Of a DNA stretch of 39,777 nt, positions 19,899 through 24,081 are shown piece after piece. Each line of letters begins with the position of its first letter. Position 1 is the stretch's first letter. This DNA comes from Methanosarcinaceae archaeon (lineage in GTDB: Archaea; Halobacteriota; Methanosarcinia; Methanosarcinales; Methanosarcinaceae), in NCBI GenBank assembly GCA_021106765.1, contig JAIOTO010000060.1, positions 1 through 39,777 of the forward strand, given 5' to 3'. The translations under genes and the position numbers were made by a program. A model generated the notes under the pieces. That model made no database searches and was not told the origin of the DNA. It saw only the letters and a program-made list of their open reading frames with translations.

Positions 19899-20060
19899 AT
19901 GGTATATGCAAATGGATATCCCTGTTAATATATGTAATGACAGTGTATCCTGTCAGATACCTTGATTCTATAAGCAATCGAAACAATAAAATAGAACATT
20001 TTTAAATTACCCGTTAGATAACACATTACGAACCTTTTCGATCACCAGGTGCAATCAAAA

Positions 20061-21293
20061 ATGAAAATCAGCAAGCCAAGAGGTACAAGGGATTTTCTTC
20101 CAGAAGAAACCACGCGTCGCAGACATGTAGAGAACATCATGCGGCAGGTTGTGAATAACTGGGGGTATCATGAGATAATCACTCCCACGTTCGAGAAACT
20201 TGACCTGTTCACTCTGAAATCCGGTGAAGGGGTCGTTGGAGAATTGTACAATTTTATGGATAAGGGCAACAGAGAGATGACCCTGCGGCCGGAATTGACC
20301 GCTCCAGTGATGCGGATGTATGTCAATGGGCTTCAGGCCAACCCGCGGCCGCTCAAGTTGTTCTATTTTGAGAACTGTTTCCGCTATGAAAGGCCACAGA
20401 AGGGACGGTACAGGGAATTCTGGCAGTTCGGTGTGGAAGTTATTGGGAGTAAACTGACAGATGCCGATGCTGAGATCATCGCACTTGCATCCGAAATGAT
20501 AAGGGCTGTGGGCATACAGGGTGATCTGCATGTAGGGCATCTGGGCATAATACGGCATGTTCTGCGGGACCTTGGCAGCGAGGAGCAGACAAAGATCATG
20601 AGACTCGTGGACAAAAAGGATGATTCAGGACTGGAGGATTACCTGGAAGAGATTCATGCAAGTGCAGAAATTCGTCGCAACGTGCTGGAGCTGATCTGCC
20701 TGAGTGGGGAAGATGCTGTCTTAAAAGCTCGTCAGATCATCGGTGACATTGAGGAACTTGATCATTTCGAGGAACTTCTCACTCTTCTTGCAGCCTATGG
20801 GGTTAACTATAATATCGACTTTGGGATCGCACGTGGCCTGGATTATTATACAGGCATGGTGTTCGAGATCTATGCTGAGGGACTCGGAGCCCAGAACCAG
20901 GTATGTGGCGGCGGGTCATACCAACTAATCCAGCTCTTCGGTGGAGGAGATGTACCATCCACGGGTTTTGGTCTTGGCTTTGATCGCATAATGGAGATCT
21001 GCAAGATCGAACCGGACCGTGCTGTAAACGCCGTTGTCATCGCCACAGACGAGACGCGTACTGATGCGATAAGGGTTGCCACTGCAATGAGAGAAACGAT
21101 ACCAGTGTACCTGGACATCATGAAACGGAACTTCAAGGCACAGCTATCCTATGCCAACAACATGAACGCCGATTTTGCTGTGATCGTTGGCAAACGGGAG
21201 GTCGAAGCCGGACAGGTGACTCTGAAGGATATGCACTCCGGTGAACAGACCCAGCTAACCCTTGAGGAAGCGATACGCCAGATCACACTATAA
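20061..21293 (+). CDS. hisS: Histidyl-tRNA synthetase
   Basis: Class II aminoacyl-tRNA synthetase charging tRNA-His (410 aa). Seen: N-terminal [12 protein letters not shown], motif 2 [19 protein letters not shown], the histidine-binding signature ARGLDYYTG and the [13 protein letters not shown] block, motif 3 GFGLGFDRI, and a C-terminal anticodon-binding domain. The ATG at 20061 is chosen over the GTG at 20049 because AGGTG lies 9 bases upstream of it. A TATA-like block ATTTTTAAATTA lies near 19997. The four pilin-like genes begin 2 bp after its stop and probably share its transcript. Confidence 0.96.
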
Positions 21294-21295
21294 AT

Positions 21296-21784
21296 ATGTG
21301 GATATTTGATCCTGCAGGATTCTGTAGTGATGAGGAGGCGGCTGATGCGCTGCCCATGCGGTTCACAGTGGCAGCCATGCTGGTACTGCTGCTCATGGTG
21401 CTGTTCACCACTGCAATACTTGATCTGAAGTATGTTGCAGACAGGCACCACACCGACGTTGCCCTGTCGAAGATCACATATAATGCCGAGCAGATGACAC
21501 TGCGGGGTGCAGGCACGATGATCAGCCTTAAGGTAGATATCCCTTCAGATACGAAGATCGTCCTTGGAGCACTTCCTGATAGCGAGAATACATGGCCTGA
21601 GGATGCGAGCAATTACTACATCCAGACCGGTGAACAGCGTGTTATCCATGAGACAGATGCCTTGTTCTCCAACATCCATCTGGATGGGACATACACACTC
21701 TCATCGGGACAGCACCAGGTGATGCTGGAGTCCGTAACAGAGGCCAGCAGCGGAAAAATATTCGTCAAAATATACGATATCTGA
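21296..21784 (+). CDS. Pilin-like secreted/membrane protein, cassette gene 1
   Basis: A 162-aa protein of unknown function. The start DEEAADALPMRFTVAAML resembles the N-terminus of archaeal type IV pilins (an acidic DEEA stretch before the helix), followed by one strong hydrophobic helix at about 22-42 and a beta-rich polar domain containing SLKVDIPSDTKIVLG. It begins 2 bp after the hisS stop. It is likely an N-terminally anchored, outward-facing subunit. Prepilin processing is inferred, not shown. Confidence 0.72.
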   Translation: MWIFDPAGFCSDEEAADALPMRFTVAAMLVLLLMVLFTTAILDLKYVADRHHTDVALSKITYNAEQMTLRGAGTMISLKVDIPSDTKIVLGALPDSENTWPEDASNYYIQTGEQRVIHETDALFSNIHLDGTYTLSSGQHQVMLESVTEASSGKIFVKIYDI

Positions 21785-21803
21785 AGGATGGATTGTCATA
21801 CCA

Positions 21804-22406
21804 TTGAACACATTCCGTGACCTTTGCAATGACCGGTCAGCATGGATAGATTTCGTGCTATCCAAAACCGCACTGATCATTGCAAGTGTGATACTGATAT
21901 CGGCCTCCTATCAGCTGGCTCAGGATCTGGGAGGCCAACACATGGAACAGGAACTGGATGTGATCGCCCTTGGCCTGAAATATGCCATCGATGATGTGGG
22001 AAGCTTATCGTACACGGGAAATGAGGGCCATACCTACACGTTCGATCGTGTGGATCTCGGTTGGGAACAGCCGATCAAAGCATACGTCAGCAGTGAATAC
22101 GTGCGCATTGAGGCATTGCATCAGGAACGTCCCATCCATTCGGTCGTGCCAATGACGTTCAGGATGTTGCCATTCAATGAAAGCACACTTCGAAACTTGT
22201 TATCTATAAACTTTGCAGGCCAGAATGGCAGTATGCAGGAACCTCTTAACAGTGATTGTGACCAGGTAATGGGAACTCTGGCGCAAACCGGGAGTTGGGA
22301 AATACTGTTAAATACGAGCAAAACGGTCTGTATGAAAAAAACACCCATATACATACAAAATAATTCAGAGGTATCATCTCTTGACCTTATTCTCGTTTAT
22401 CAATGA
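21804..22406 (+). CDS. Pilin-like secreted/membrane protein, cassette gene 2
   Basis: A 200-aa protein of unknown function with one N-terminal hydrophobic helix at about 20-36 (TALIIASVILISAS) preceded by NDRSAWIDF, then an extracellular-looking domain with two Cys in the C-terminal third. The start is a TTG at 21804 with GAAGGATGG about 12 bases upstream. No better ATG exists in frame before the helix. It follows gene 1 by 19 bp and overlaps gene 3 by 26 bp. Confidence 0.68.
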   Translation: MNTFRDLCNDRSAWIDFVLSKTALIIASVILISASYQLAQDLGGQHMEQELDVIALGLKYAIDDVGSLSYTGNEGHTYTFDRVDLGWEQPIKAYVSSEYVRIEALHQERPIHSVVPMTFRMLPFNESTLRNLLSINFAGQNGSMQEPLNSDCDQVMGTLAQTGSWEILLNTSKTVCMKKTPIYIQNNSEVSSLDLILVYQ

Positions 22407-22872
22407 TGATCGCGGAGTACTGGAACCGCACAATGATATACTGGCAACCGCCCTTATGATCATCGGTTTTGTGGTCCTTGCAGCGATCCTGGCACAGACC
22501 TATCTGACTTACGATGATAACTCCATGGTACTCCGGAACTATGAGGAAGCCACCCGTATCGCTGAGAATATTGCTTCATTCGATGAGATACAGGCAGCAG
22601 GCCCTGACAGAATCTCGGCACAGGCACTTGACACCATCAGCTATCCTATCTCCGACAGTGAGGCTCACCGGAGATTCTTTGCGAGGTATGCCGATGGCCT
22701 TGACCTTTCGGTACACATCACGACCGATGACGGACATCATCAGTGGACCATCGAACGGTATAGTACCCATACTTTGGGAAACAATGTGATCGCAGCATCC
22801 GTGCCGGTGGTGATCGAGCTGAGCCCTGCTGAGTTCGCATCGGGCACGATCAGGGTCAGTATCCAAAAATAA
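22381..22872 (+). CDS. Pilin-like secreted/membrane protein, cassette gene 3
   Basis: A 163-aa protein of unknown function. NDDRGVLEPHND precedes a helix at about 20-40 (ILATALMIIGFVVLAAILA). The Arg-Gly before the helix looks like a class III (prepilin peptidase) cleavage site. The rest is a mixed alpha/beta domain. The TTG start at 22381 has GAGGT about 9 bases upstream and lies inside gene 2, a 26-bp overlap that suggests coupled translation. Confidence 0.7.
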   Translation: MTLFSFINDDRGVLEPHNDILATALMIIGFVVLAAILAQTYLTYDDNSMVLRNYEEATRIAENIASFDEIQAAGPDRISAQALDTISYPISDSEAHRRFFARYADGLDLSVHITTDDGHHQWTIERYSTHTLGNNVIAASVPVVIELSPAEFASGTIRVSIQK

Positions 22873-22905
22873 GTGGTTTCGAGGGAATAGGGGATAGAGA
22901 TAGCA

Positions 22906-24081
22906 ATGAAACGAATAACAGAACTATCGGATAACACCACAGCATTTGCATCGACAGTGGATGCAATATTCTTCCTGGTCCTTGTCTCCGTTGCAGCGGT
23001 CATCCTCATGCCGTCCATCACCGCAGATGGACAATACGATGCAGCACGATATACGGCCACCCAGGACTTTGAGACGCATCTGCTGGAGACGCTGCTAAAT
23101 GGGAAGATCGATGATTTCGGATACACCCTTTCTCCAACCACCATCATCAACCTGTCCATGCCAAACAGTTCCATTGCCACCGACGCGACCGATGCGGTCC
23201 TTGGAAAACACCAACATCATCGGACGCTCTCGGACCTTATCGCAGAGGACATGCTCCTGGGACTATCCGTGGTGGGGAACAACAGTTATACCCCCATCAA
23301 TCCCATGGCAGAGGAGCATGGGACCCAGACACGTGACGCCATTCGCTCATACCTTGACAGTACGATAGGAAGGCGCTATGATTACCGGTTCGAGACACGT
23401 TGGGTGCCGTTTAATGGATTTCCTCTTGAAAGCCGTATTGTCGTGGGCAACGTGCCACTACCCGACGCCATCCGACAGAGTGCCATGATCACACTGCCCC
23501 TTGCACACCGTGTGTCCAGGGACGCCATCCTGGGCCCCATTAACGATACCGTCCTTGCAGATATGAACACGTCCTTACCCGCGATGCGTTCCACAGCATA
23601 CCATGCCGCATTCAACCAGAGCATCACGGTGGCTTCACATGATGCATCCCTGATGATCACTGAACTGGTGTTTCCGGCCGATCACCTGAGATCGCTGCTC
23701 AGGTCCGGTTCCCATACAAGCAATGAGCAAAGGGGTCTGATGGGAGACCCACAAACCATCAACTGTACCCCGGACCTGATGATGGCAACCCAGCTTATTG
23801 AACACATGACCACTGCCCTCAACCTGACAAACCTGACCGTGTCCACAAAACTAAGCAGCAGTGCTGTTACTCAGATAGAGGACGAAATGGTCCTGATGAA
23901 CCAGCGGCAGATAATGACCTCCATGAACGAGGAACTGTCCGGGGGTATCAACGCGACGGTGGCCCTGATGGTAAACAGCAGCGGACCGGAACAGACGACA
24001 GCACTACGGGATAAACAGGTTGATTCGATATACCGGACTGTCAATACTGCAGGTGTGGATGTCGTACTGAGCCTGTGGTGA
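22906..24081 (+). CDS. Large single-helix secreted protein, cassette gene 4
   Basis: A 391-aa protein of unknown function. A short cytoplasmic stretch ending FASTVDAIFF leads into one helix at about 18-38 (FFLVLVSVAAVILMPS), then a long exported domain rich in Asn-X-Ser/Thr sites (several NxS/T sequons), as in archaeal surface glycoproteins. No second membrane segment or known enzyme motif is visible. It ends the cassette. No assembly ATPase, TadC-like platform or prepilin peptidase gene is adjacent, so these subunits must use a machine encoded elsewhere if they assemble. Confidence 0.72.
   Translation: MKRITELSDNTTAFASTVDAIFFLVLVSVAAVILMPSITADGQYDAARYTATQDFETHLLETLLNGKIDDFGYTLSPTTIINLSMPNSSIATDATDAVLGKHQHHRTLSDLIAEDMLLGLSVVGNNSYTPINPMAEEHGTQTRDAIRSYLDSTIGRRYDYRFETRWVPFNGFPLESRIVVGNVPLPDAIRQSAMITLPLAHRVSRDAILGPINDTVLADMNTSLPAMRSTAYHAAFNQSITVASHDASLMITELVFPADHLRSLLRSGSHTSNEQRGLMGDPQTINCTPDLMMATQLIEHMTTALNLTNLTVSTKLSSSAVTQIEDEMVLMNQRQIMTSMNEELSGGINATVALMVNSSGPEQTTALRDKQVDSIYRTVNTAGVDVVLSLW

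Follow-up and report, generated by a model that had tools for sequence, protein, structure and literature searches.

A four-gene cassette behind hisS

The locus raises the question of which surface structure four consecutive genes behind a histidyl-tRNA synthetase gene help to build. The genes lie in the window, the whole stretch of 39,777 nucleotides that was analyzed, which comes from a Methanosarcinaceae-like genome (G000) of 1.74 Mb in 134 contigs; the named relatives found for its hisS are Methanosarcinaceae metagenome-assembled genomes. The features are as follows.

20049..21293, + strand: hisS, histidyl-tRNA synthetase; genomic anchor, outside the system
21296..21784, + strand: P1, 162 aa, pilin-like, DUF7311-type by profile-profile matches
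21804..22406, + strand: P2, 200 aa, TTG start, single-helix surface protein without significant family match; by position a probable minor pilin or accessory subunit
22381..22872, + strand: P3, 163 aa, TTG start, pilin-like, DUF7285-type by profile comparison
22906..24081, + strand: P4, 391 aa, sequon-rich, pilin-like, DUF7284 family (PF23955 above cut-off)

A preliminary description of this region placed four same-strand genes right behind hisS, as the ORF coordinates confirm; 2 nt separate the end of hisS from the start of P1. The genes were also called partly overlapping, which holds for P2 and P3 (26 nt of overlap) and not for P1/P2 or P3/P4, which are 19 and 33 nt apart.

Each protein was said to have one N-terminal hydrophobic helix, and such a helix is predicted in all four (residues 24-42 of P1, 15-33 of P2, 20-38 of P3 and 20-38 of P4) as well as in the aligned families, where exactly one helix was predicted for 23/23 P1, 21/21 P2, 22/24 P3 and 22/23 P4 members. 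The prepilin-like N-termini reported for two of the proteins are present, namely DEEA in P1 and DRG in P3. In the alignment of the P3 family a conserved E-P stands ahead of the helix and behind a class III-like R-G. Counted with a loose pattern of the FlaFind kind, a class III-like motif is found in 14/23 aligned members for P1, 4/21 for P2, 22/24 for P3 and 13/23 for P4. P4 proved to be as rich in N-glycosylation sequons as had been stated: its N-X-S/T sequons number 12, whereas shuffled sequences average 4.0 and none of 2000 shuffles reached 12. Among the 23 aligned members of the P4 family, 18 showed sequon enrichment at <0.05 of shuffles, and the P4 of the window is one of these.

Structural comparison had been put forward as a check on a pilin fold. 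AlphaFold (AF2) single-sequence models of P1 (pLDDT 45) and P3 (pLDDT 40) were unusable for fold comparison. Searches of the solved structures with profiles of P1, P3, P4 and the small pilins discussed below returned nothing significant; the best PDB chain for P1 was a type IV pilin, at a non-significant E of 0.31. The minor-pilin reading developed here rests on homology, gene order, co-inheritance and motor phylogeny, and not on folds.

Conservation of the cassette and its neighborhood

Relatives of P4 occur in 28 of 60 genomes, a sample that, like every count of 60 genomes given here, includes the window's own. The co-occurrence of the four genes, on which their description as a set depended, was checked at 25 relatives' loci, and at 22 of these P1-P4 were all recognized, in the same order and on one strand. 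P2 was not recognized at L057 and L067, nor P1 and P2 at L070.

hisS lies immediately upstream of the cassette (gap of ≤41 nt, or overlap) at 13 of the 25 loci, 357-431 nt away at 2 and about 4 kb away at 1. At the other 9 the fetched stretch does not contain it; in one of these the stretch stops shortly after P1. The cassette has different neighbors in other families of the order (L065-L071) and in L123/L124. Because hisS is tight at 13/25 loci only and other families have other neighbors, the unit is the four-gene set itself, and hisS marks no more than its local address.

The surroundings of hisS also retain traces of loss. Two Methanosarcinaceae metagenome-assembled genomes (L030, L031) carry no cassette between hisS and rps15. 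In G188 a 30-residue P4 end stands directly behind hisS (L212), and the TadC gene of the motor described below is still present. In G007 (L213/L214) broken pieces of P2, P3 and P4 lie ahead of rps15, and the motor's TadC is absent. The 2-nt gap in the window and the tight spacing at 13 of the 25 loci could point to a surface complex with no relation to pili, one coupled instead to hisS or translation. However, such coupling is hardly credible given the varying neighbors in L065-L071 and L123/L124 and the persistence of hisS and rps15 in L030, L031 and G188, which lack the cassette, and it is contradicted by the co-inheritance with a motor.

Family identity of P1-P4 and a haloarchaeal operon

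According to the preliminary description none of the four proteins matched a protein that could be named. This stands for P2, whereas profile methods name the other three. P4 passed the gathering cut-off of PF23955 (DUF7284; E 1.4e-12, 48.5 bits, cut-off 27) and matched DUF7284 with an E of 1.1e-15 in profile-profile comparison. P3 fell short of the gathering cut-off of DUF7285 (PF23956; E 0.0015, 19.6 bits vs 27); its profile matched that of haloarchaeal DUF7285 with a probability of 95.8 and an E of 7.7e-9. The profile of P1 matched haloarchaeal DUF7311 (probability 95, E 3.3e-8), and its N-terminus matched small tandem Ig-like pilins (probability 95, E 2.6e-8). The NCBIfam search of the cassette proteins gave no match over cut-off. 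P2 had nothing above cut-off in Pfam or NCBIfam, and its best haloarchaeal profile match, to DUF7283, was not significant (E 0.028). At 22 of the 25 relatives' loci P2 keeps its place between its two neighbors P1 and P3, and by position it is a probable minor pilin or accessory subunit.

Haloarchaeal DUF7284 loci contain TadA, TadC and several single-helix proteins around the DUF7284 gene, and at 17 loci a TadA belonging to one clade lies within the stretch around it. In the haloarchaea, ORFs were picked according to length and acidity; some starts are wrong and the gene coordinates are approximate. Pfam resolves the order DUF7310-DUF7311-TadA (T2SSE)-weak TadC (T2SSF)-DUF7283-DUF7285 at L107 and DUF7283-DUF7285-DUF7284-DUF7286 at L113. 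At L123, in family f14, P1-P2-P3-P4-DUF7286 and a 202-aa protein are contiguous.

The haloarchaeal DUF7310-DUF7311-TadA-TadC-DUF7283-DUF7285-DUF7284-DUF7286 operon and the methanogen system therefore have homologues of P1, P3, P4, the motor and DUF7286 in common. The two differ in that the haloarchaeal genes form one operon whereas the parts are dispersed in the window's genome, in that haloarchaeal DUF7283 has no clear match to P2, and in the long tree branch that sets the haloarchaeal TadAs off from those of the methanogens.

A divergent TadA-TadC pair in trans

The earlier statement that no motor or platform gene is adjacent is accurate for the neighborhood of the cassette, where no motor gene adjoins P1-P4. 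It is nevertheless misleading, as a TadA-TadC pair is present elsewhere: the genome has several TadA/TadC sets, and a TadA of a divergent class lies beside TadC on contig C61. In a chosen sample the divergent TadA class was found in 10/10 genomes with P4 and in 0/5 without it, and TadC adjoins it at 10 of 11 loci. TadA and TadC of the C61 class resemble the haloarchaeal operon proteins far more than the genome's other sets do. In a TadA tree a branch with 100/100 support separates 17 haloarchaeal and 11 methanogen sequences, the genome's own included, from 35 others. The first 120 TadA residues contain 4-8 cysteines in 10/10 full-length methanogen members, a count that leaves out the genome's own TadA, whose C61 copy is truncated where the contig stops; the corresponding numbers are 3-6 in the 17 haloarchaeal members and 0-3 in the 35 others.

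The C61-type TadC is overlooked by family searches because it falls below the Pfam T2SSF cut-off; any match was obtained for just 2 of 11 members, the better one with an E of 2.4e-4. The profile of the C61-type TadC matched the ordinary TadC profile with a probability of 90 and an E of 1.3e-6. The haloarchaeal TadC set alone gave no good match to the ordinary profile (E 0.011), nor did the C61-type profile match one ordinary TadC sequence. The C61 TadA is most likely the assembly ATPase, and the C61 TadC the membrane platform.

Other genes were seen near TadA-TadC in related loci. A HerA-like ATPase, a Peptidase_A24 gene and a P1-like gene lie near the TadA-TadC locus of family f14 (L157:10956-13097, L154:10853-13438), and Pfam confirmed both the HerA-like ATPase and the Peptidase_A24 gene in L157. 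The latter is possibly a dedicated prepilin peptidase. In the haloarchaeal locus L113 a HerA-like gene (760-1815) lies close to DUF7310.

Co-inheritance of the cassette and the motor

The C61-type TadC was found in 28 of the 60 genomes, exactly the same 28 that have P4 (Fisher 1e-17, phylogeny ignored). Because P4 and the C61-type TadC vary together within five genera (g2, g5, g7, g8 and g19), the match does not reflect one ancient split. As a control, an unrelated C42-type TadC, for which strong matches only were counted, fragments included, was compared with P4 and gave 18/10/17/15 (Fisher p=0.44, phylogeny ignored). Phylum-wide, 44 of 196 genomes have DUF7284 and 46 have the C61-type TadC, with 43 shared; a closer search added G205, bringing the overlap to 44. 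Both PF23955 and PF23957 gave hits in Methanosarcina acetivorans. The exceptions were G199, with DUF7284 and no TadC, G129, with TadC and no detected DUF7284, and G188, with TadC and the 30-residue P4 scrap. A survey of the neighborhood for TadA/TadC-like genes, as had been suggested, thus found none beside the cassette and a cognate pair in trans with exact co-occurrence.

Another TadA-TadC pair of the genome is on contig C42 (L073:5970-10529), where no pilin genes were seen on the stretch. It was considered as the motor of the cassette and rejected, being present in genomes without P4 and absent from genomes with it. More generally, P1-P4 could be served by any of the several TadA/TadC motors of the genome and not by one dedicated pair. 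The C42 pair, with no pilin genes seen beside it, would suit such an arrangement; motors and pilin sets are argued to be exchangeable in main-text sections of Makarova, Koonin and Albers 2016 (PMC4858521), and a Haloferax pilB1-C1 deletion was rescued by PilB3-C3 according to passages of PMC6491452. Shared use is nonetheless unlikely here, since presence and absence match exactly with one TadC across the 60 genomes and do not match with the C42 type.

DUF7286, tandem pilins and a coiled-coil protein

Further candidate components are encoded at two more loci. DUF7286 is found on contig C113, followed by a secreted-looking protein of ~200 aa, and the two are paired in 20/20 fetched DUF7286 loci. 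In the 60 genomes DUF7286 and P4 are shared by 26; 2 have P4 only (G003, G040) and 1 has DUF7286 only (G030, a genome that is 72% complete). In G004 and G180 the DUF7286 gene stands beside hisS-P1-P4 in divergent orientation. The genome's own DUF7286 frame (L129:2342-6322) is interrupted by a single in-frame TAA and runs off the end of its contig, reflecting decay or an assembly error. The cassette of G003 is accompanied by an ORF of 1330 aa (L053:3071-7063), flanked by rps15 and the next conserved gene, for a probable secreted surface protein; as a candidate DUF7286 this ORF gave no match and was rejected.

Small pilins that combine a GLPI/V-type helix with an Ig-like tail come after TadA-TadC in families f14 and f5. 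A profile of these small pilins detected a tandem pair in the window's genome on contig C76. Outside the haloarchaea a simple longest-ORF caller was used and some genes were missed, for example the C76 pilins on the first pass. Tandem pilins were clear in 9 of 10 genomes with P4 that were tested (3 by construction) and weak in G004, and were found in 0/5 genomes without P4. A coiled-coil gene adjoins the tandem pilins at 6 loci, C76 included. The C76 coiled-coil protein (L201:5454-6011) has a long hydrophobic C-terminal region and is therefore probably membrane-bound; it did not match DUF7310.

Relationship to subclade 4F

Subclade 4F of the archaeal type IV pili comes from comparative genomics (Makarova, Koonin and Albers 2016, PMC4858521). 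As set out in main-text sections of that paper, the N-terminal domain of the 4F ATPase is variable and Cys-rich, most strongly so in methanomicrobia, and the systems include PilA-type pilins that often stand alone, a protein of S-layer-like type and, in halobacteria, a coiled-coil protein. Measured against those sections, the system described here is similar in its Cys-rich ATPase N-terminus, TadC partner, stand-alone tandem PilA-like pilins and large surface protein, possibly also in its coiled-coil protein (halobacterial in 4F), and differs in having its parts in four separate loci in the window's genome. We filed the system under 4F because the Cys-rich ATPase N-terminus is present, and the shared features suggest that the TadA clade found here is Makarova's 4F. 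The main-text sections of PMC4858521 do not name P1-P4 or tie them to Methanosarcinaceae. The PilB1-C1 and PilB3-C3 pili of Haloferax are likewise TadA/TadC-driven archaeal type IV pili and are placed in clades 4C and 2 in passages of PMC6491452.

In a literature search the six DUF families of the system were named in no paper found, the arCOG and 4F terms occurred in PMC4858521 alone, and no experiment on a 4F-type system was found. The present analysis adds to this by identifying the orphan cassette, linking it to a motor encoded in trans and describing a layout of four loci.

Proposed assembly

On sequence evidence, P1-P4 very probably supply the minor pilins for a dedicated type IV pilus of the archaeal subclade 4F type, the remaining parts of which are encoded in trans. 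The suggestion that they are minor subunits of an undescribed pilus, secretion or surface structure has gained from the haloarchaeal pilin-like homology and the motor co-inheritance, whereas the word undescribed does not hold, as the system fits subclade 4F.

From the comparisons we infer cleavage, a filament, tip position, adhesion and function, as well as the division into major and minor pilins. P1-P4 would be inserted via their N-terminal helices, and a prepilin peptidase would trim at least P1, P3 and P4. The P1-P4 complex may then start or cap a filament, to which TadA/TadC would add major pilins, with the C76 pair as the shaft. Glycosylated P4 and DUF7286 would face outward for attachment. 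The two tandem Ig-like pilins on C76 are the probable major subunits and the coiled-coil protein a probable regulator, while DUF7286 is probably a large adhesin or S-layer contact.

The bacterial minor pilins offer a comparison. PilVWX/FimU go with PilY1, and GspHIJK is likewise a bacterial minor pilin set, of four subunits with one large member. The likeness, a few single-helix subunits together with one very large surface protein, is one of analogy alone; these bacterial proteins have no sequence match to P1-P4. A short pseudopilus for protein secretion, similar to the type II secretion endopilus and distinct from an extended pilus, might be proposed on similar grounds, since four subunits of which one is large resemble GspH-I-J-K in number and size, and the secreted ~200-aa protein that is always at the DUF7286 locus could be its substrate. 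This seems improbable, because the co-occurring tandem Ig-like pilins fit the description of 4F major pilins in main-text sections of PMC4858521.

An extended pilus with minor pilins is thus the preferred reading. As a tentative and more specific proposal, the Methanosarcinales may have a dedicated, all-or-none pilus encoded at four unlinked loci (P1-P4; TadA-TadC; DUF7286 with its secreted partner; and the tandem Ig pilins with the coiled-coil protein). Its archaeal tip complex would then consist of P1-P4 and the DUF7286 protein of >1300 aa, by analogy with minor pilins and PilY1.

Machines with parts scattered in this way escape operon-based annotation. Here, the four genes without a name, together with several DUF families and a TadC invisible to the Pfam model, would become one testable methanogen pilus system, and the proposed system reaches the genetically tractable Methanosarcina.
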